Source: Bacteroidales bacterium (GTDB lineage Bacteria; Bacteroidota; Bacteroidia; Bacteroidales; F082). Taken from it: a stretch of 64,000 nt of DNA. Position 1 is the stretch's first letter, and the number at the start of each line of letters is the position of its first letter. Of the stretch, positions 46,281 through 59,474 are shown piece by piece. The position numbers and the translations under genes were made by a program. The notes below the pieces were generated by a model. That model did not search any database. It saw only the letters and a program-made list of their open reading frames with translations, and was not told the DNA's origin. The stretch is from NCBI GenBank assembly GCA_013141455.1, contig JABFQW010000006.1:54227-118226 (forward strand). The letters run 5' to 3'.

Positions 46281-49200
46281 ATGAAAAAAAATTACCTTAT
46301 GAAAAAAAAATCAGGATTATTAAAATTGGGTTTATTACTCTTTTGTTTAACAATAGGGTCAATGAACACATTTGCTCAGTTTAGTCAAACCAATGGCCCA
46401 AAAGGCGGTGATATCAGAAGTTTTGTTAAACATAATTCATACCTGTTTGCAGGAACGTTTTCCGGTGGCGCTTTTCGTTCTTCTGATAACGGGGATAATT
46501 GGAACGCTATTAATACCGGCCTAACAACAGGCAGTTATGCACCTAACCAGGCATTACGGGTTAAAGCTTTCCTATCTTATGGTAATGATTTGTATGCCGG
46601 AACTGATGGTGGAGCATTCCGTTCATCTGATAATGGTGAAACATGGAACATGATCGATGGGATACCCATGAATGTTTATTCCTTCACCGCAATTGATTCA
46701 GTTCTCTTTGCAGGGACAAATACAGGTATTTACCGTTCAACAGATTATGGCAGTTCCTGGCAACGGATAACAAATGTATTTAATAGTGCCTGTAATGCGC
46801 TCATCAAAAAAGGAAGAAAAATAATTGCCGGCAGTTCATACCAGGGTGTTTATATTTCTGATAATAATGGTGATAGCTGGACCATCTCAAATTCCGGCTT
46901 ATCCGATAAACATATACTCTCCTTCACGGTCAAAGGAACCGATTTGTTTGCAGGTACCTTTACCGGTGTATTTCGTTCTTCGAACAATGGTGGTACATGG
47001 ACAAAAGTCAGCACGGTTGCAACAACAGGTTCATTTTGTTATTCAATGACGAATGATGGCGCCAGTGTATTTGTTGGAAGTAGCATCGGTGTTTTTACTT
47101 CATCAAATAACGGGGGAAGCTGGACAAGTGTAAACAATGGAATCCCTGCAATAAACACCTATGCTTTGGCTTACGATAGCACCAATATTTATGTCGGAAA
47201 TTACACAGGAGTTTATAGGTCAGGCGATAATGGTGCTTCTTTTATCGAAACCAATAACAACTTAAACGCCAGGTTCATCTCCTCATTTGCTTCTATCGGT
47301 AGTTATCTGTTTTCATCATCACAATATGGTGGTGGTGTTTACCGCTCCGATGACAACGGCGAAACCTGGGAACTCAAAAATAATGGCTTACCCTATTTTT
47401 ATACTTCTATTAAACTTTCATCTGAAGGAAATGCTCTAATTGCGAATGGTTATCTGGCTTCACCGATGGGTTATTATGATTATGTTTCGTATGATTACGG
47501 CGAAAGCTGGACTTTATTTAACCACAATCTTCCGGTTGTTGAATATATATTCTCACACATCGACATTGGGGATACCATCATAGTAAACACCGATGGTGAT
47601 GGTGTCCTGCGTTCGATTGACGGCGGAGCATCATATCAGACAGTTAATTCAGGCTTGGAGGCAATCATCGACCCAATGACCGGATTATATCTGGCAGTTC
47701 CAAGTATGTATTTATATGATACAACTTTATTTATCGGAACACCCAATGGTATCTATCGTTCAGCCGATTATGGAGATTCATGGACCTACAGCGGGTTACA
47801 GGGTGTCACTTTAGTCGGTTCTTTTGCCTTTGAGTCAATTGGCCCGAATTTATTTGCCGCAACTTTATTGAGCGAAAGCAGCGATCATACTGATGCCGTG
47901 TATCTTTCATCCGACAATGGGCTTACATGGGAAACAATCTCATCAGGAATTACCCAATTTGCTACAGAACATTTTAAGAAAATGTATGTGATGAATACAA
48001 ACCTGTTTGTAACGACAGATAATGCATCTGTTTTAATAACAAGAGATTACGGAGAACATTGGATCAATATCACTCCGTCAGTATCCGGAGGAGGCTGGGA
48101 CAATTTCGATGTTGCAGAATCAGATTCAGTGATGTTCATTTCATCTTTCTTTACTGGCATATATGCTTCAATTGATGATGGGTTGAATTGGGTTGATATC
48201 AGTAATGGTATTAATGATGAACCTTATATCAGTGTTGGGACGATTATCGTTAAAGACGATTATTTATATGTCGGCACATCAAATCAGTCGGTCTGGAAAC
48301 GAAATTTATCCGAAATAGCAGCTCCGGCTCAACCTGATGCAATTGCAGGTCCAACAACACCGTGCATTGGATCATCTCAAACGTATAGTGTAACCAATGT
48401 AGCCGAAGTAACTTACGCCTGGCAATTCCCACAGGGATGGACAATTACCGAAGGATCCACAACCAGTTCGGTAACGGTAACGGTTGGCAGTGCGGCAGGA
48501 GTTATTGCAGTAACACCTTCGAATAGTTTCGGCACAGGGCCTTCTCAATTTCTTGTTGTTACACCAGCTGCTTACCTTGAAGCCGGAGTCACTATCGTGT
48601 CAGATCAGAATAATATTTGTGAAGGAACAGCGGTTACTCTAACTGCTACACCTGCCAATGGCGGTGAAAACCCTGCTTATCAATGGTTTGTGAATGGTGT
48701 CGAAACCGGAGAAAATAGTCCGGCCTTTAGTTTTATACCGGTAAATAATGATGAAGTGAGTGCTCTGTTGACTTCCTCATACGAATGTATATCGAATAAT
48801 CCCGTAGAATCGAACACCATACAGTTTCAGGTTACCGGAATGGTAGATGTAATCGTCTCAATCACTGAGGATAAAAACGATATTTGTGCAGGCGATGTTA
48901 TGACCTTCACCGCTACCACAACGAATGGTGGCGATCAACCGGCATATAGCTGGTTTGTTGGTGAAGAAAATGTTGGTGAAAATGCGGATACATTCTCTTA
49001 TATTCCCGAAAATGGCGACATCGTTTCACTTGTTTTCACTTCAAATTATTGGTGCGTTTCACAGAACCCGGTAACTTCAAATGCTATCGTTGCGATTGTA
49101 AATACACTACCCGTTGTTACCTGGAATTATACCGATCCTACCACCGTGTGTATCGAAGACTGGGGTCCAATTACATTAACTGGTGGATTACCCGAAGGTG

Positions 49201-49598
49201 GCATCCACTCAGGCACCGGTGTTAGCGGTAATATTTTCGATCAGGCTGTGGCCGGTGTTGGAAACCATGTTATTAGCTATACTTATACCGATGCGAACTA
49301 TTGTTCAAACCAGGCAACTATCGAATTTACAGTTGATGCCTGCCTTGGTATAACAGAATCAAATCATGGATTGCTCGTTTATCCGAACCCAGCCTCTGAA
49401 AATCTTACAATCAAACTGAACAACCAGAATATAGTAGATGTGATCCTGTACAACAGCATGGGAATCAGGGTATATAACGAGCTTAATGTGAAAGCTTCAA
49501 ATATAACAGTTCCGGTACAAAATCTGCAGGCCGGAAATTACATGCTGAAAGTTATAACTGATAGCGAAACAATTGTGAAACCGGTAATAATTAATTAG
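46281..49598 (+). CDS. T9SS Asp-box beta-propeller surface protein (F)
   Basis: Signal MKKKSGLLKLGLLLFCLTIGSMNTFAQF; Asp-boxes; Ig-like repeats; LLVYPNPASENLTIKLNNQ. Confidence 0.9.
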   Translation: MKKNYLMKKKSGLLKLGLLLFCLTIGSMNTFAQFSQTNGPKGGDIRSFVKHNSYLFAGTFSGGAFRSSDNGDNWNAINTGLTTGSYAPNQALRVKAFLSYGNDLYAGTDGGAFRSSDNGETWNMIDGIPMNVYSFTAIDSVLFAGTNTGIYRSTDYGSSWQRITNVFNSACNALIKKGRKIIAGSSYQGVYISDNNGDSWTISNSGLSDKHILSFTVKGTDLFAGTFTGVFRSSNNGGTWTKVSTVATTGSFCYSMTNDGASVFVGSSIGVFTSSNNGGSWTSVNNGIPAINTYALAYDSTNIYVGNYTGVYRSGDNGASFIETNNNLNARFISSFASIGSYLFSSSQYGGGVYRSDDNGETWELKNNGLPYFYTSIKLSSEGNALIANGYLASPMGYYDYVSYDYGESWTLFNHNLPVVEYIFSHIDIGDTIIVNTDGDGVLRSIDGGASYQTVNSGLEAIIDPMTGLYLAVPSMYLYDTTLFIGTPNGIYRSADYGDSWTYSGLQGVTLVGSFAFESIGPNLFAATLLSESSDHTDAVYLSSDNGLTWETISSGITQFATEHFKKMYVMNTNLFVTTDNASVLITRDYGEHWINITPSVSGGGWDNFDVAESDSVMFISSFFTGIYASIDDGLNWVDISNGINDEPYISVGTIIVKDDYLYVGTSNQSVWKRNLSEIAAPAQPDAIAGPTTPCIGSSQTYSVTNVAEVTYAWQFPQGWTITEGSTTSSVTVTVGSAAGVIAVTPSNSFGTGPSQFLVVTPAAYLEAGVTIVSDQNNICEGTAVTLTATPANGGENPAYQWFVNGVETGENSPAFSFIPVNNDEVSALLTSSYECISNNPVESNTIQFQVTGMVDVIVSITEDKNDICAGDVMTFTATTTNGGDQPAYSWFVGEENVGENADTFSYIPENGDIVSLVFTSNYWCVSQNPVTSNAIVAIVNTLPVVTWNYTDPTTVCIEDWGPITLTGGLPEGGIHSGTGVSGNIFDQAVAGVGNHVISYTYTDANYCSNQATIEFTVDACLGITESNHGLLVYPNPASENLTIKLNNQNIVDVILYNSMGIRVYNELNVKASNITVPVQNLQAGNYMLKVITDSETIVKPVIIN

Positions 49599-49842: not shown

Positions 49843-50754
49843 TTAATAAAGATTCTCAACTGACAGATAACGCTCTCCTGTGTCGTAGTTGAAAGTCAGG
49901 ACGCGGGAACCGACAGGCAGGTTGGGAAGACTTTTTGCCACAGCAGCCAGGGCAGCACCGGTTGATATCCCGACAAAGATCCCTTCTTCCCTGGCTATTT
50001 TTCGTGCATAATCGTAGGCTTCATCTTTACCAACCCTGACTATTCCATCGATCAGATCGGCCCGGTAAATTTTCGGGACAAATCCTGCTCCGATTCCCTG
50101 TAATGGGTGCGGACCCGGATCACCACCGCTTAAAACGGGCGAAAGCTCCGGCTCAACAGCAAAAACCTTTACGTTTGGAAACTTCGCTTTAAGTACTTCG
50201 GCAATACCTGAAATATGACCACCTGTTCCAACGCCTGTAATTATATAATCCAGACCGTCAGGAAAGTCGGTTAGAATCTCCTGAGCCGTTGTCCATTTGT
50301 GTATCTCAACATTTGCCTGATTGTTAAACTGCTGAGGCATCCATGAATTCGGGATTTCAGAAGCAAGTTCGGCAGCCCGTAGTATGGCTCCTTTCATCCC
50401 CTTTTCTTTGGGCGTCAATTCAAACTGCGCACCAAAAGCCGACATGAGTTTCCGGCGTTCGATACTCATCGACTCAGGCATGACCAGGATGATTTTGTAT
50501 CCTTTTACCGCTGCCACCAAGGCCAGTCCAACACCCGTATTACCCGAAGTCGGCTCTATGATTATGCTGTCTTTGTTCAGTTCGCCTCTATTTTCGGCGT
50601 CCTCAATCATGGCCAGAGCAATCCGATCCTTGATGCTGTTACCCGGATTGTTTCTTTCTAATTTAATCCAAACTTCGTGTACACTGCCAAAAAGTTTGTT
50701 TATTCTAACATGCGGGGTGTTCCCGATGGTTTCTAAAATGTTATTTGCTTTCAT
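49843..50754 (-). CDS. cysK: Cysteine synthase (O-acetylserine sulfhydrylase)
   Basis: [32 protein letters not shown] (PLP Lys), [46 protein letters not shown]. Confidence 0.95.
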
Positions 50755-50769
50755 AGTTTTGAATGTGAT

Positions 50770-51585
50770 TTATATAATAAAATTTAATGGTTCAGGAAAT
50801 TGTTGATTTGTTTTGATAATGATCTCACTCTTGTGAAATACAAGCGAACAGTCGGGGATCGACTGCGTGGTCCACACATTGCCGCCAATGACCGAATCGT
50901 CGCCAATGACTGTGTTACCTCCCAGAATGGTGGCATTGGCGTAAATCACCACCCTGTTACCGATTGTAGGATGCCGTTTGGTTCCTGCTATCTTCCTGCT
51001 GACACTCAGAGCTCCAAGGGTAACACCCTGATATATTTTTACATCGTTGCCAATTTCGCAGGTTTCACCGATGACCACTCCCGTTCCGTGATCGATCAGG
51101 AAACGCTCCCCTATTCTGGCTCCCGAATGAATGTCGATACCGGTTTTAAAATGCGCGTATTCTGATAGTAAACGCGGAATGATTTTCACCTCAGCCAGAA
51201 ACAGCGCATGGGCCAGGCGATGGATCGCCACGGCATAAAATCCCGGGTACGAAAACAACACCTCATCGATCGACCGGGCGGCCGGATCAGAAATGAAGAT
51301 GGTTTCCAAATCACTTTTTAACAGTCCGTGAATGACCGGAAGCTGATTAAAAAATTCTCTGACGAAAGCTGCCGCATCTCCGGGATACGCGTTTATCTCC
51401 CGGATGAAATGTTGCAAATCCTGTTTCAACTCTGCCTCTTTCGACAGAAAAACCTCAATCCGCGAATACCTGGGATGGATAGAAAAAAGCCAGTCGAAGA
51501 TTTCATCGGCCCAGGCTGACAGGCTTCTCTTGTCGAACGAAAGCCGCAAAAACCGTGCATTATTCTCAAAAATCGGATGTGTCAT
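50770..51585 (-). CDS. cysE: Serine O-acetyltransferase (EpsC/CysE family)
   Basis: Left-handed beta-helix hexapeptides: GIDIHSGARIGERFLIDHGTGVVIGETCEIGNDVKIYQGVTLGALSVSRKIAGTKRHPTIGNRVVIYANATILGGNTVIGDDSVIGGNVW; 15 bp upstream of cysK on the same strand. Confidence 0.93.
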   Translation of the reverse strand: MTHPIFENNARFLRLSFDKRSLSAWADEIFDWLFSIHPRYSRIEVFLSKEAELKQDLQHFIREINAYPGDAAAFVREFFNQLPVIHGLLKSDLETIFISDPAARSIDEVLFSYPGFYAVAIHRLAHALFLAEVKIIPRLLSEYAHFKTGIDIHSGARIGERFLIDHGTGVVIGETCEIGNDVKIYQGVTLGALSVSRKIAGTKRHPTIGNRVVIYANATILGGNTVIGDDSVIGGNVWTTQSIPDCSLVFHKSEIIIKTNQQFPEPLNFII

Positions 51586-51678: not shown

Positions 51679-51710
51679 AAAAAAGCCCTTCTGCTTTCGC
51701 GGAAGGGCTT
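51679..51710 (-). terminator. Attenuator terminator 2 of the cysE-cysK leader
   Basis: On - strand: AAGCCCTTC-cgcgaaagca-GAAGGGCTT followed by a U run. Confidence 0.85.
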
Positions 51711-51740
51711 CTGAGAACGTGATCTGCTTTTACAACAAAT

Positions 51741-51839
51741 TCAACAACACATAGGTTTGCCTTTCCGCATTTGTAAACACAAACAGCAACACATACAGTT
51801 TTGAACTGCGGAAGGAATGAATTTGGACTGATCTATCAT
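51741..51839 (-). CDS. Cys-rich leader peptide 2 (32 aa)
   Basis: MIDQSKFIPSAVQNCMCCCLCLQMRKGKPMCC; 7 Cys codons, read directly from the reverse complement. Confidence 0.8.
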   Translation of the reverse strand: MIDQSKFIPSAVQNCMCCCLCLQMRKGKPMCC

Positions 51840-51859: not shown

Positions 51860-51890
51860 AAAAAAAAGGCTTCCCGTTAACGGAAAGCCT
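51860..51890 (-). terminator. Attenuator terminator 1 of the cysE-cysK leader
   Basis: On - strand: AGGCTTTCCG-ttaa-CGGGAAGCCT then TTTTTTT. Confidence 0.85.
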
Positions 51891-51927
51891 GATCTGAATA
51901 ATATTTTATTATAAGGCTCTCCGGAAA

Positions 51928-51999
51928 TCAAACGTACACCGTACAACACATAACTGTGTCGCAGGAAACGTTTAAAATATTTTGAGCGCTGTGATTCAT
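51928..51999 (-). CDS. Cys-containing leader peptide 1 (23 aa)
   Basis: MNHSAQNILNVSCDTVMCCTVYV; UGC and tandem UGU UGU codons a short distance before the stop. Confidence 0.75.
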   Translation of the reverse strand: MNHSAQNILNVSCDTVMCCTVYV

Positions 52000-52018: not shown

Positions 52019-52050
52019 CAAAAGTAGAAGTAAGTTTTATTAATAAACAA
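52019..52050 (-). promoter_or_regulatory. Putative promoter of the cysE-cysK leader
   Basis: On - strand: cTTG at 52050, 21 nt, TACTTTTG at 52026-52019 (Bacteroidota -33/-7 consensus TTG / TAnnTTTG). Confidence 0.65.
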
Positions 52051-52648: not shown

Positions 52649-55600
52649 ATGAAAAAAAATCTGAATTTTACTCTGTTATTCAGTGCTTTGCTGTTTTTTT
52701 TCCTGAGCATCGAATCGTTGCAGGCCCAAACCTGGGAGCCTACCAACGGGCCGTATGGCGGACCGGTACAGTGTTTTGCCGAAAACGATTCTTATCTGTT
52801 TGCAGGATCATCGGGAGGTGTGTTTGCAAAAGGAGTTTTCCGCTCAGCTGACCACGGAGCAAACTGGACAACCGTAAACAATGGTCTGAGTAATGTTGGT
52901 ATGGGAAAAGACATCTATGCACTTGCTGTAAGCGGATCATATATCGTTGCTTCAACAGGCCAAGGTATCTACCGTACAGCCGATAATGGTGACAACTGGT
53001 CAGTCTGCGATTATAGTGGTACGTATGTTCCCAATGCTTTTTACAGTATCGGATCCGATTTATTGGCCGGTGGCTCGTCAGGATTGTATGTTTCGACAGA
53101 TAATGGACTTACCTGGGCTTCGCAAAACGAAGGTTTTCAAGGAATTAGCCCGCCAAGTGTACCCGAAATACAATCATTTGTAATGAATGGAACAACCCTT
53201 TATACCGGAACCAATCAAAAAGGTATCTTCCGTTCCACCAATAACGGACTAACCTGGACCACGGTGAATGGTGGATTAGGAACCCCTTCACAACTGAGCC
53301 AAAGAAACTTCAACAGCCTTGTGTTCGAAAACGGGGACATTTTTGCCGGGACATTCGGACAGGGTGTTTTCCGTTTGCGCGATAATGGCAACAACTGGAC
53401 CAATGAGGTAAACGGTTTACCCAACTTTCAATCCAAATATATCAGGTCAATCCTCATAAAAGATAGCTACGTTTATATCACTACTCTGACTGGTCTTTAT
53501 CGTTCTGAACTGGCTGGTACAATCAGTTGGACGCTTCAGGATATTACTCCCTCGGATTTAAATTTAGTAAAACTTTTTGGCAGTGGTTCAGATATCTTTG
53601 CTTCAACAGAAAGAGGCGTTTGTATATCTACCGATAATACTGCAACCTGGACCACATCTTTTGATGGCATGCTTGGATTAAATGCAACAGTGTATTCAGC
53701 AGGCGGAACTGATTTGTTTGCTGCTACCTCGGGAGTTGGCAACGGTTATTTTTATCGTTCATCCGATTTTGGCGAATCCTGGGATATGGGTAATATGGTT
53801 GGTGCCCCCTACCCTTTTAACGGATATCTGTTTTTATGGAAAGCTGAAGGAATTTTCCGTTCGGCTGATAATGGTGAAACCTGGGATTTAATTTATGATT
53901 TCGGTGGCTTGTGCTATTTTCATTCGATGGGATCAACACTTTTTGCAACCATAACCTGCTGTGAAACAATTTACTATTCAAATGACAACGGTATAAGCTG
54001 GACACCCTCAACCTTGTTGGATTTGGGTGGCTTTTGGGGAAATAACATACTTGATCTCACTAATGACGGTACTACACTCTATGCAGGAACTTTGAATATC
54101 GGGGTACTAAAATCTATAGACAATGGCGTGAACTGGACCACCTGCAATACAGCGATGGGTAATATTCCTATCCGCGCCATGGCAACCGACACTACCTATA
54201 TTTATGCAGGCACAAGTAATTTTTATGAAGATCCAAATCTCCAGGCAGTCGGGATATATCGCTCTGCTGACAATGGCACTACATGGACCCTTGTAAATAA
54301 TGGACTTGGTAATCTGGATATCGGTTCATTGGTAATCAATGGCAATGATATCTATGCCGGAACAAAATCAGGTATTTATAAATCATCAAATAACGGCGAT
54401 AACTGGATTCCAATGAATGATGGATTTACAGTTTCGCCCAACACAACATCCATGGTGGTCTCAGGTAATTATCTGTTTGCCAATAATTTTGCACCCTCAT
54501 TGGGCGCTCCGATTTACCGACGGGCTTTATCAGGCTCAGTTCCTGAACAGCCGGATGAAATCGTTGGCACGGCAACTCCCTGCATCGGTTCGAACCAAAC
54601 TTATAGTGTAACCAATGTTCCCGGCGTGACCTATGCCTGGCAGGTTCCTTCCGATTGGACCATTCTGTCGGGTAACGGAACCAATTCAATCAATGTGACG
54701 ATTGGTGTTCAGGCCGGCGCGGTATTGGTTACTCCATCGAATGGCTGGGGAAGCGGACCTACCCAGTTCCTGGCTGTTGTTCCAACCACAGCAGTAGAAG
54801 CAGAAGTTTCGATCGCAGCAGATCAGGATATTTTCTGCAGCGGATCAACAGCCATTATTACTGCAATGCCTGTCGAAGGCGGCGAAACACCCGTTTACCA
54901 ATGGTTTGTGAATGGAATCGAAAATGAAGAAACCGGCTCGGTATTAACCTATATTCCAACCAATAACGATGAGGTATATACGTTGTTAACTTCATCACTC
55001 AGCTGCGTAACCAATAACCCTGTACAATCAAACACCCTGCAGTTACAGGTAACTGAAGCCATTGATGTAATCGCATCTATCGATGTTGACAAAAACAATG
55101 TATGTGCGGGCGATGTTATGACATTTACCGCCACAACAACGAATGGTGGTGAACAACCTGAATACAGTTGGTACGTGAACGAGGCAGTTGCCGGTGAAAA
55201 TGCTCCGATTTTCTCATATACACCAGAAAATGGTGATATCGTTTCATTGGTTTTCACTTCAAGTGAATGGTGTGTTTCGCAAAATCCGGTAACATCAAAC
55301 GCGATTGTTGCCATCGTGAAACCGCTACCCGATGTTAGCTGGAATTATACCGATCCAACCACGGTTTGTATCGAGGATTGGGGTCCGATTACATTAACAG
55401 GCGGACTTCCCGAAGGAGGTATTTATTCAGGCGATGGCGTAAGTGGTAACATCTTCAATCAGGCTGTTGCGGGTGCAGGTAATCACGTTATTAGCTATAC
55501 CTATACCAATGCAGACTTTTGCTCAAACCAGGTAAGTATCGAATTTACGGTTGACGAATGCCTTGGTATTTCAGAAGCGACCTCCAGACTGCTCGTTTAT

Positions 55601-55822
55601 CCAAACCCGGCAATCAATAATATGACGATCAAACTGATGGATAACCAGACGATCCTGGATATTACATTGATCAACAATATGGGCATAACTGTATATGAAA
55701 ACCATGACGTAAAATCAATGGGAACAGTGATAATACCGGTTCAACATATAAAGGCCGGAAACTACACAATCAAAGTGACCGGCAATAACGAAACAGTAAT
55801 AAAATCAGTGATCATTGAATAA
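52649..55822 (+). CDS. T9SS Asp-box beta-propeller surface protein (G)
   Basis: MKKNLNFTLLFSALLFFFLSIESLQAQTWEPTNGPYGG; Asp-boxes; Ig-like repeats; LLVYPNPAINNMTIKLMDNQ. Confidence 0.9.
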   Translation: MKKNLNFTLLFSALLFFFLSIESLQAQTWEPTNGPYGGPVQCFAENDSYLFAGSSGGVFAKGVFRSADHGANWTTVNNGLSNVGMGKDIYALAVSGSYIVASTGQGIYRTADNGDNWSVCDYSGTYVPNAFYSIGSDLLAGGSSGLYVSTDNGLTWASQNEGFQGISPPSVPEIQSFVMNGTTLYTGTNQKGIFRSTNNGLTWTTVNGGLGTPSQLSQRNFNSLVFENGDIFAGTFGQGVFRLRDNGNNWTNEVNGLPNFQSKYIRSILIKDSYVYITTLTGLYRSELAGTISWTLQDITPSDLNLVKLFGSGSDIFASTERGVCISTDNTATWTTSFDGMLGLNATVYSAGGTDLFAATSGVGNGYFYRSSDFGESWDMGNMVGAPYPFNGYLFLWKAEGIFRSADNGETWDLIYDFGGLCYFHSMGSTLFATITCCETIYYSNDNGISWTPSTLLDLGGFWGNNILDLTNDGTTLYAGTLNIGVLKSIDNGVNWTTCNTAMGNIPIRAMATDTTYIYAGTSNFYEDPNLQAVGIYRSADNGTTWTLVNNGLGNLDIGSLVINGNDIYAGTKSGIYKSSNNGDNWIPMNDGFTVSPNTTSMVVSGNYLFANNFAPSLGAPIYRRALSGSVPEQPDEIVGTATPCIGSNQTYSVTNVPGVTYAWQVPSDWTILSGNGTNSINVTIGVQAGAVLVTPSNGWGSGPTQFLAVVPTTAVEAEVSIAADQDIFCSGSTAIITAMPVEGGETPVYQWFVNGIENEETGSVLTYIPTNNDEVYTLLTSSLSCVTNNPVQSNTLQLQVTEAIDVIASIDVDKNNVCAGDVMTFTATTTNGGEQPEYSWYVNEAVAGENAPIFSYTPENGDIVSLVFTSSEWCVSQNPVTSNAIVAIVKPLPDVSWNYTDPTTVCIEDWGPITLTGGLPEGGIYSGDGVSGNIFNQAVAGAGNHVISYTYTNADFCSNQVSIEFTVDECLGISEATSRLLVYPNPAINNMTIKLMDNQTILDITLINNMGITVYENHDVKSMGTVIIPVQHIKAGNYTIKVTGNNETVIKSVIIE

Positions 55823-56309: not shown

Positions 56310-59300
56310 ATGAAAAAAAAATTAAACTTTATCTTGTGGTTCAATGCTTTTCTGATTTTTGTCGTGGGCATTGAAACCCTGTCTGCTCAAACCTGGGAAC
56401 CTACCAATGGTCCTTATGGAGAAAGAGTTCAGTGTTTTATCGAAAACAGTTCTTATATTTTCATTGGGACAGGCGGTGGTTATTATGCGCATGGAATTTA
56501 CCGCTCGGCAGATGATGGACTTAGCTGGAGCAGTTGCAATAACGGATTATCCACAGTAAACATGGGACTCGATGTGCCAACCATGGGTTCATCTGGAAAC
56601 TATTTACTTGCTGCTGCCGGATTTAAAGTGTATCGTTCTGATAACAATGGTGATACCTGGATACAAACCAATTATAATGACACTTATGTTCCCACTGTTT
56701 TTGTAAATGATGGAAGCTATTTATATGGGGCAGGGAATATGGGTCTTTATGTTTCGACAGATAACGGTTTAAACTGGATATCAAAAAATAACAATATACC
56801 GGGATTTAGTTCTCAAAATCCTGCGCCAATCCAATCGTTAGTCGTAAGCGGATCATACCTGTATGCCAGCACAAATAACCATGGAATATTCAGGTCGGCT
56901 GATCATGGCGAAACATGGACAACGGTAAATACCGGTTTAGGTAATGCCTATGAAATAGCGCACAGAAACTTCAAAAAGTTAGTCGTTGCCGGTGATGATG
57001 TCTTTGTAGTTGCAGAAGGAACAGGTGTATATCCGATCACTTTTGCAGGAGTTTTCCGGTTAGCCAACAATGGCAATACCTGGACGAATGAATCTACCGG
57101 CTTACCGGTAAATTTCTGGAATGGCCTGATGGTGAAAGATAATCTGATCTATTGTGGTGGTATTTCAGGAATTTATGTTTCCAGTTACAGTGGTCAGTTG
57201 AACTGGTCGGCTTTGAACAGTGATTTGCCGATTCAAAATATTTCCGTACTATACCAGGGATTTACAGATGTTTATACAGCCGGTGAAATGCAGATTTACC
57301 GTTCAACAGATAATTTATCAACATGGACGGCTGTCTATGATCAATTACCGGGCTATCATTCAAATATGATTACCAACATCGGAGATGATGTGTATGCAGA
57401 AATGAACTCGCATCTGTTTCACACGTCTGATTTCGGTGAAAACTGGACCTCACTGAATATGGGTACCTTGAGCGCAGGACCATGGGAACATGGAAACTAT
57501 CTGTTTTGCAGCTACCAATACAGCGATTTTTACCGTTCATCTGACGGTGGCCTTACCTGGACTGAACTTCCAGAATTTGTAAATCTAACATGGGAAGCGC
57601 CTTCTACTTTTTTATCGAAAGGAGATACAATTTTTGCAGGTGGAGGCTTCCAGGGTGATGCCTATGGTATTTTTTATTCGTTGGATAATGGTGAAACCTG
57701 GAGTCAAACCGCTGGTTGTTATGTAGCGCCCGGATCTATAAATCAAGTAGGTAACACTATGTATGCTGGAACTGTAAACGGAAGTTTCATCTCTACGGAT
57801 AATGGTTTGAACTGGAGTCCGTGTTTCCCTTTAAACCCGGGTATTTCGTTGTTTTTTAATGGTTCGGATATCTACTCCACCGGAGGAGGTGTTTTTCATT
57901 CATCAGACAATGGCGCCCATTGGAGTAACATTAGTATTCCTGACAGAACCCACAGTAAATTAGTTTTCAACGGAGACGAAGTATATACAGCCACACTTGA
58001 ACAGATAGGATCGGAATTCATTCCGGGAGGAATATATAAATCAACGGATCAGGGTGCACACTGGACAGAATTTAATGAAGGTTTTGAGTCACTCCCTTAC
58101 GCAACGTCATTGGCAGTTGCCGGAAATTATTTATTTGCAAATAACTTTTTTACTGGTGCTGCAGCGTATCGCAGGGCATTGTCGGGCGATGCTCCATCTG
58201 AACCCGATCCGATCGTAGGTAATGAATCGCCCTGTATTGGCTCAACACAAATCTATAGCGTAACAAATGTTCCTGAAGTCAACTATACCTGGGAAGTACC
58301 TCAGGACTGGATCATCACCGCCGGACAGAATACCAATTCAATTACTGTAACAGTTGGTACTTTCACCGGTTGGGTAAAAGTAACACCTTCAAACGGCTGG
58401 GGAAACGGTCCGGCACGTCTACTAACCGTAACCCCCACACTTACAGCCGATGCCAGTATTTCGATAGAAGCCGGTCAGAACAATGTTTGCCAGGGATCAC
58501 CAGTCGTTATCACAGCCACCCCATCTGAAGGAGGAGACTCACCAGTGTATCAATGGTTTGTGAACGATGTCGAAAATGGCGAAACCGGCCCGGTCTTAAC
58601 CTATATTCCGACCAATAATGATGAGGTGTATGCCTTATTAACCTCTTCACTCGAATGTGTCGTAAACGATCCGGTACAATCAAATATCATACAGATACAG
58701 GTTAGTGAGCCTATTGAAGTAACCGTCACTATTGATGTTGACAAAAACGATGTTTGTGCAGGCGATGTTATGACATTTACCGCCACAACCACGAATGGTG
58801 GTGATCAACCTGAATACAGTTGGTACTTGAACGAGGCAGCTACCGGAGAAAATGCTCCGACATTTGCTTATACTCCTGAAAATGGTGATATCGTATCATT
58901 GGTTCTCACTTCAAGCGAATGGTGTGTTTCGCAGAACCCGGTAACATCAAACGCGATTGTTGCCATCGTGAATCCATTACCCGAAGTTAGCTGGAATTAT
59001 ACCGATCCAACCACGGTTTGTATCGAGGATTGGGGCCCGATTACATTAACTGGGGGTTTACCCGAAGGTGGCGTCTATTCAGGTGACGGTGTTAGCGGTA
59101 ATATTTTCGATCAGGCTGTTGCCGGAGCTGGTAATCACCTTATTAGCTACACCTATACGGATGCTGAGTTTTGCTCAAACCAGACAAGTATCGAATTTAC
59201 GGTTGACGAATGCCTTGGTATTTCAGAATCAGCCACCAGATTGCTCGTTTATCCAAACCCGGCAAACAAAAATATAACGATCAAACTGATGGATAACCAG

Positions 59301-59474
59301 GCTATATTGGATATTACGTTGTTCGACAATATGGGCATAGCTGTATATGAAAACCATGACGTAAAATCAATGGGAACATTGATAATACCGGTTCAACAGG
59401 TAAAGGCCGGAAACTACATTATCAAAGTAACCGGCAATAACGAAACATTAATACGATCAGTGATCATAGAATAA
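56310..59474 (+). CDS. T9SS Asp-box beta-propeller surface protein (H)
   Basis: MKKKLNFILWFNAFLIFVVGIETLSAQTWEPTNGPYGE; Asp-boxes; Ig-like repeats; LLVYPNPANKNITIKLMDNQ. Confidence 0.9.
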   Translation: MKKKLNFILWFNAFLIFVVGIETLSAQTWEPTNGPYGERVQCFIENSSYIFIGTGGGYYAHGIYRSADDGLSWSSCNNGLSTVNMGLDVPTMGSSGNYLLAAAGFKVYRSDNNGDTWIQTNYNDTYVPTVFVNDGSYLYGAGNMGLYVSTDNGLNWISKNNNIPGFSSQNPAPIQSLVVSGSYLYASTNNHGIFRSADHGETWTTVNTGLGNAYEIAHRNFKKLVVAGDDVFVVAEGTGVYPITFAGVFRLANNGNTWTNESTGLPVNFWNGLMVKDNLIYCGGISGIYVSSYSGQLNWSALNSDLPIQNISVLYQGFTDVYTAGEMQIYRSTDNLSTWTAVYDQLPGYHSNMITNIGDDVYAEMNSHLFHTSDFGENWTSLNMGTLSAGPWEHGNYLFCSYQYSDFYRSSDGGLTWTELPEFVNLTWEAPSTFLSKGDTIFAGGGFQGDAYGIFYSLDNGETWSQTAGCYVAPGSINQVGNTMYAGTVNGSFISTDNGLNWSPCFPLNPGISLFFNGSDIYSTGGGVFHSSDNGAHWSNISIPDRTHSKLVFNGDEVYTATLEQIGSEFIPGGIYKSTDQGAHWTEFNEGFESLPYATSLAVAGNYLFANNFFTGAAAYRRALSGDAPSEPDPIVGNESPCIGSTQIYSVTNVPEVNYTWEVPQDWIITAGQNTNSITVTVGTFTGWVKVTPSNGWGNGPARLLTVTPTLTADASISIEAGQNNVCQGSPVVITATPSEGGDSPVYQWFVNDVENGETGPVLTYIPTNNDEVYALLTSSLECVVNDPVQSNIIQIQVSEPIEVTVTIDVDKNDVCAGDVMTFTATTTNGGDQPEYSWYLNEAATGENAPTFAYTPENGDIVSLVLTSSEWCVSQNPVTSNAIVAIVNPLPEVSWNYTDPTTVCIEDWGPITLTGGLPEGGVYSGDGVSGNIFDQAVAGAGNHLISYTYTDAEFCSNQTSIEFTVDECLGISESATRLLVYPNPANKNITIKLMDNQAILDITLFDNMGIAVYENHDVKSMGTLIIPVQQVKAGNYIIKVTGNNETLIRSVIIE

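Follow-up and report, generated by a model that had tools for sequence, protein, structure and literature searches.

Two short, cysteine-rich ORFs succeed one another ahead of cysE-cysK in this Bacteroidales genome, each followed by a hairpin and a U tract, which raises the question of whether the operon is governed by ribosome-mediated attenuation and, if so, which of the possible RNA pairings such control would use. For the second leader, a sequence-only reading had proposed the textbook geometry, in which segment 1 pairs with 2, 2 with 3, and 3 with 4 in the terminator stem. Our analysis of the window, i.e., the whole 64,000-nt stretch of DNA, indicates that this leader is very probably a ribosome-mediated transcription attenuator responding to cysteine, one of two arranged in series on the cysE-cysK leader.

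The cysE-cysK operon and its two leaders

cysE and cysK form an operon downstream of both Cys leaders (Table 1), and their function agrees with the regulatory codon. The cysE product also matched TIGR01172 with an E value of 1e-51, under that model's cut-off, and a cysK homologue adjoins cysE in 33 of the 34 related loci with a leader. Direct reading of leader 2 found its three segments, and the C-M-C-C-C-L-C run between segments 1 and 2, exactly where the sequence-only reading had placed them. The amino acid made by the downstream operon is thus encoded by a codon run in this short ORF (7 Cys among 32 codons). Segments 1 and 2 both lie within it, segment 3 belongs to the terminator stem, as had been claimed, and the intrinsic terminator sits between the ORF and cysE. 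Position and Cys run of leader 2 are homologous in L002, L003, L004, and L112.

Table 1. Features of the cysE-cysK leader region, with window coordinates
Feature	Position	Strand	Remarks
Putative Bacteroidota -7 promoter element, TACTTTTG (consensus TANNTTTG)	52019..52026	-	motif scan
Leader 1 ORF, MNHSAQNILNVSCDTVMCCTVYV, then stop	51929..51999	-	3 Cys codons
Leader 1 segment 2, CGGAGAGCC	51913..51921	-	pairs with 5' arm of terminator 1
Terminator 1 (3:4), then U tract	51867..51890	-	
Leader 2 ORF, MIDQSKFIPSAVQNCMCCCLCLQMRKGKPMCC, then stop	51741..51839	-	32 codons, 7 Cys
Leader 2 segment 1, CCTTCCGCA	51807..51815	-	able to pair with segment 2; read directly
Cys codon run C-M-C-C-C-L-C	51777..51797	-	codons 15-21, between segments 1 and 2
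Leader 2 segment 2, TGCGGAAAGG	51760..51769	-	within leader 2 ORF
Leader 2 segment 3, CCCTTCCGC	51699..51707	-	5' arm of terminator 2; read directly
Terminator 2 (3:4), then U tract	51682..51711	-	-18.8 kcal/mol
cysE, serine O-acetyltransferase	50770..51585	-	EpsC-type NCBIfam match barely over cut-off
cysK, cysteine synthase A	49843..50754	-	TIGR01139 over cut-off

L002, L004, L005, and L006 have a homologue of leader 1 in the corresponding position, 23 residues long and with an invariant CC. The 2:3 duplex of leader 1 (-17.9 kcal/mol) is matched by about 1 in 2000 shuffles, and 91% of the cells of this helix are paired in the five orthologues versus 32-58% in slid controls. In terminator 1, 96% of cells are paired and two pairs are altered on both sides; formal covariation across the five orthologues supports 3:4, at a level reached by 16 of 500 shuffles. 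The 2:3 helix is too invariant among them for covariation, so that weight falls on the comparison of matched and mismatched duplexes described below.

Two further Cys codons of leader 2 lie beyond segment 2 (51749-51744), and trailing Cys codons also occur in L032, L038, L125, L134, and L138. Stalling on the two in leader 2 would favour termination, a point against the attenuator model. We considered them as a second, opposing sensor and dropped the idea, since the family as a whole shows no in-frame enrichment of Cys codons past segment 2 (13/318, versus 39/576 in the other frames); for the same reason, the trailing codons of leader 2 look incidental.

Alternative pairings and the position of the ribosome

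The claim that segment 2 can pair with either 1 or 3 was borne out. In leader 2, the 2:3 stem region folds with -21.2 kcal/mol, the 1:2 hairpin with -13.4, and 3:4 with -18.8, while the bare duplexes reach -16.8 kcal/mol for 2:3 and -12.8 kcal/mol for 1:2, values equalled by 0.7% and 0.8% (P 0.008) of dinucleotide shuffles, respectively. A prohibitive 2:3 energy, which had been named as fatal to the proposal, was therefore not encountered. None of 30 foreign terminator arms matched the leader's own arm in pairing with the segment-2 region, and 1 of 30 foreign upstream regions equalled its own segment 1 in pairing with segment 2. When folding was followed on a growing, ribosome-free leader 2 transcript, 1:2 appeared earliest (0.95) and was replaced by 2:3 (0.83-0.87) once segment 3 emerged; in the final state, 3:4 stood at 0.97 and 1:2 was restored at 0.70.

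We also scanned the predicted pairing codon by codon with a modelled ribosome, whose footprint, taken from E. coli ribosomes in general, is an approximation, as is thermodynamic folding. P(2:3) is ~1 as long as one of the first four Cys of the run (codons 15-19) occupies the A site; it falls to 0.62 on the fifth (Cys 21) and to 0 a few codons further on, including the stop codon. With this footprint, a stall on the run frees segment 2, and a ribosome at the stop codon covers it; the scan hence predicts antitermination upon stalling on the first four Cys and termination once translation is finished. The same scan over 38 leaders yielded a median P(2:3) of 0.95 on the first Cys and 0 on the stop.

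From the ORFs, the alternative pairings, their conservation and order, and the change of predicted pairing as the ribosome moves, all of which were computed, we infer translation of the leader, stalling, termination, and a response to cysteine. With ample Cys-tRNA, the ribosome would pass the Cys run, reach the end of the ORF, and cover segment 2; segment 3 would then pair with 4 and transcription would end. When Cys-tRNA is scarce, a ribosome stalled on codons 15-19 would leave segment 2 free to pair with the emerging segment 3, no terminator would form, and the polymerase would continue. In this copy of leader 2, segment 1 would add the 1:2 hairpin, a structure that should promote termination of an untranslated leader as well. 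This scheme assumes transcription-translation coupling in Bacteroidota.

Conservation of the pairings among related leaders

For the comparison with relatives, we took cysE loci from the window genome's order and a genome collection and looked for short Cys-rich ORFs with a terminator behind them, a requirement under which terminator-less leaders would be missed. The comparison set comprised ~45 homologous leaders, with homology searches sampling part of the phylum. A Cys-rich leader with a terminator precedes cysE in many Bacteroidales, Flavobacterium, Edaphocola, and one Saprospiraceae MAG; under stricter detection rules, 110 of 149 cysE homologues have no such leader. Other Cys leaders were also sought in the window genome with a TGY-run pattern, which gave 47 matches versus 24 for the reversed pattern; the first ten of these loci contained no short ATG ORF with CCC.

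Among 31 non-redundant leaders, duplexes between the segment-2 region and the terminator arm of the same leader average -14.6 kcal/mol, and those with foreign arms -10.1 (p 2e-4, the lowest value that the permutation test could give). Eleven held-out leaders, that is, ten fetched after the hypothesis had been fixed plus L035, which the first screen had overlooked, behaved similarly (-14.4 own versus -11.1 foreign, p 1e-4), while 31 ordinary terminators put through the same test as a negative control did not differ (-8.3 versus -8.4, p 0.56). This matched-pairing test is the main evidence pointing to selection on 2:3. Chance would have short ORFs and hairpins simply coincide in an AT-rich intergenic region, where lone complementarities of 8-9 bases are indeed common; homologous leaders in many genera, the held-out confirmation, and the negative control contradict it and leave it a practically negligible probability.

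The outcome for 1:2 was different. Own segment 1 regions pair no better than foreign ones, either across relatives (-6.3 versus -6.2, p 0.34) or in the held-out leaders (-7.5 versus -7.8, p 0.67), and leader 1 of the window operon itself lacks a 1:2 pairing (shuffle P 0.36). These results bear on a strict trp-type attenuator, in which 1:2 would be essential and selected, as a pause hairpin and as the means of terminating by default without translation. The low shuffle P of 1:2 in leader 2 and the predicted succession in which it alternates with 2:3 and 3:4 speak for such a device, which we nonetheless consider unlikely in view of its lack of conservation. As 1:2 is not a family feature, the full three-way textbook geometry is particular to leader 2 of the window: of the geometry originally proposed, 2:3 (present in essentially all orthologous leaders) and 3:4 stand as conserved, and segment 1 with its hairpin is not kept. 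The 1:2 pairing thus appears to be a local addition outside the family design, and segment 1 accessory at most. The antiterminator 2:3 and the terminator 3:4, which exclude each other, uphold the broader proposal of a Cys leader-peptide attenuator in two serial modules before cysE-cysK. In relatives, termination with cysteine is most simply explained by the ribosome reaching the stop codon and covering segment 2, which lies within the ORF in most copies and just past the stop in the leader 1 group.

Two other modes of control have to be weighed against ribosome-mediated attenuation. A cysteine riboswitch or a T-box sensing the amino acid or tRNA directly, with incidental ORFs, would fit the operon and the terminator/antiterminator pair. 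We regard it as highly improbable: Rfam covariance models matched no family, T-box or riboswitch, within the 64-kb window, the Cys runs are kept while the surrounding sequence varies, and in most leaders segment 2 begins 6-18 nt past the run, a spacing that a ribosome-set switch requires. Alternatively, the leader ORFs could work through translation, by re-initiation or by the Rho-dependent polarity proposed for mycobacteria, the hairpins being secondary. Precedent exists in mycobacteria and other Actinobacteria, where polycysteine uORFs, likewise short Cys-rich ORFs before cysteine biosynthesis genes, are devoid of conserved terminators and possibly Rho-dependent (PMC1262725); a later study, Canestrari 2020 as cited in PMC13236596, terms their action translation attenuation. 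Moreover, across the ~155 nt that separate the end of ORF 2 from the cysE start, an effect on the latter is conceivable. However, nearly every leader returned by the screen, which itself called for a terminator, has a strong U-tract terminator and a matched antiterminator, needless for translational control, which makes this mode improbable here.

Stacked modules and their relation to known systems

In the window, ~20 nt separate the putative -7 element from the start codon of leader 1 that follows it. The motif scan placed TANNTTTG immediately ahead of this leader both there and in L002, L004, L005, and L006, and the stretch from terminator 1 to leader 2 contained no match. Space for another promoter is scant in L002 and L004, where the first ATG in frame with leader 2 follows terminator 1 by at most ~30 nt. 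For these reasons, one polymerase most likely meets both terminators in series, the single promoter before both modules being a putative one recognized by its motif alone. A second TANNTTTG match (TACGTTTG, window 51935-51928) at the end of leader ORF 1 has no matching upstream element and is probably due to chance.

Comparison of single and tandem arrangements, which the sequence-only reading had suggested, revealed two complete modules in five loci, namely the window, L002, and L004 (Bacteroidales-type MAGs) and the Flavobacterium loci L037 and L038, a single module being the rule among the remaining ones; these counts hinge on simple detection rules, as L004 has two modules or, under stricter rules, one. 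Cultivable carriers of the tandem are Flavobacterium endophyticum and F. akiainvivens. L005 and L006 have two terminators and only one leader ORF, with the second terminator right behind the first (L005 2948-2982, L006 2883-2916); it is perhaps a decayed or nascent second module. A cysE tree unites the window with L002-L006, L008, and L112 in one clade of eight members (support 100/100) and puts the two Flavobacterium tandems into a different group, also supported. Five changes of the tandem label are required on this tree, and supported branches force at least three of them. Its simplest reading is that the tandem was gained separately in two Bacteroidota groups, although some of the changes may be losses.

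Since a polymerase would meet terminator 2 only after getting past terminator 1, the fractions read through should multiply. Stacking is therefore expected to lower the basal level, or leak, and to steepen the response. The graded response that had also been envisaged is unlikely from two serial terminators and would need modules of clearly unequal sensitivity; the thresholds of the two leaders may differ, since leader 2 carries more Cys codons than leader 1.

The E. coli trp, his, and leu leaders are the classical ribosome-mediated transcription attenuators. They share with the present leaders a leader peptide rich in the end product, mutually exclusive antiterminator and terminator, and a biosynthetic operon downstream; here, in contrast, the amino acid is cysteine, two modules can lie in series, 1:2 is not conserved in the family, and segment 2 is mostly inside the ORF. 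Cys codons in a uORF followed by an intrinsic terminator also characterize the Rhodobacterales uORFC-8-2 motif (PMC8632094), which differs in belonging to Alphaproteobacteria, preceding cysS, being single, and having its tandem Cys codons within the first stem, whereas the Bacteroidota leaders precede cysE-cysK, contain more Cys codons, and are single or double. The Actinobacterial uORFs differ, again, in their translational or possibly Rho-dependent action. Two short ORFs with attenuators within one leader are known from Salmonella mgtCBR, a "singular example" according to its authors (PMC3641672); its signals are different, ATP and proline, and act additively, whereas here both ORFs contain Cys codons and have their own intrinsic terminator. 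A comparable layout occurs in tandem T-boxes and other contiguous riboswitches, with two complete same-signal modules in series, for which a digital, pseudo-cooperative response is expected (PMC12452182); they sense ligand or tRNA directly, not via the position of a ribosome on a leader peptide. For Flavobacterium psychrophilum, clues to leader-peptide attenuation of amino acid operons have been mentioned, in a main text that gives no details (PMC9723704).

A literature search that left subscription journals largely outside its coverage returned no description of a cysE-cysK leader in Bacteroidota and no same-signal tandem of leader-peptide attenuators. The mechanism is classical. In Bacteroidota, the version built on cysteine seems to be widespread, and its doubling is unusual; there is weak evidence for regarding the Bacteroidota attenuator as a new form of ribosome-mediated attenuation. 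The wider view of a phylum-wide family whose same-signal modules were stacked more than once into a digital, multiplicative switch is one we hold tentatively, leaning marginally against it. If true, it would extend to leader peptides a stacked same-signal design known for riboswitches, newly so per the literature searched. In any case, the cysteine attenuator would be a conserved element missing from Rfam and, in a phylum with little-described leader-peptide control, an RNA switch of cysteine supply that lends itself to testing, and natural single and double versions before the same operon make the effects of stacking on sensitivity, leak, and noise directly measurable.

The cysE of the window (cys operon at 49843-51585) is patchily distributed: searches of three genomes of the same genus did not return it, good similarity occurs in only one other genome of the same family, and copies ~70% identical, with leaders, reside in a different family of the order, a pattern possibly reflecting horizontal acquisition. 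The operon is flanked by three large plus-strand paralogues (window 46281-49598, 52649-55822, and 56310-59474), opposite to it in orientation and 40-54% identical over their full length, in which S-x-D-x-G-x-x-W-like motifs recur and the C terminus carries a sorting-type domain.
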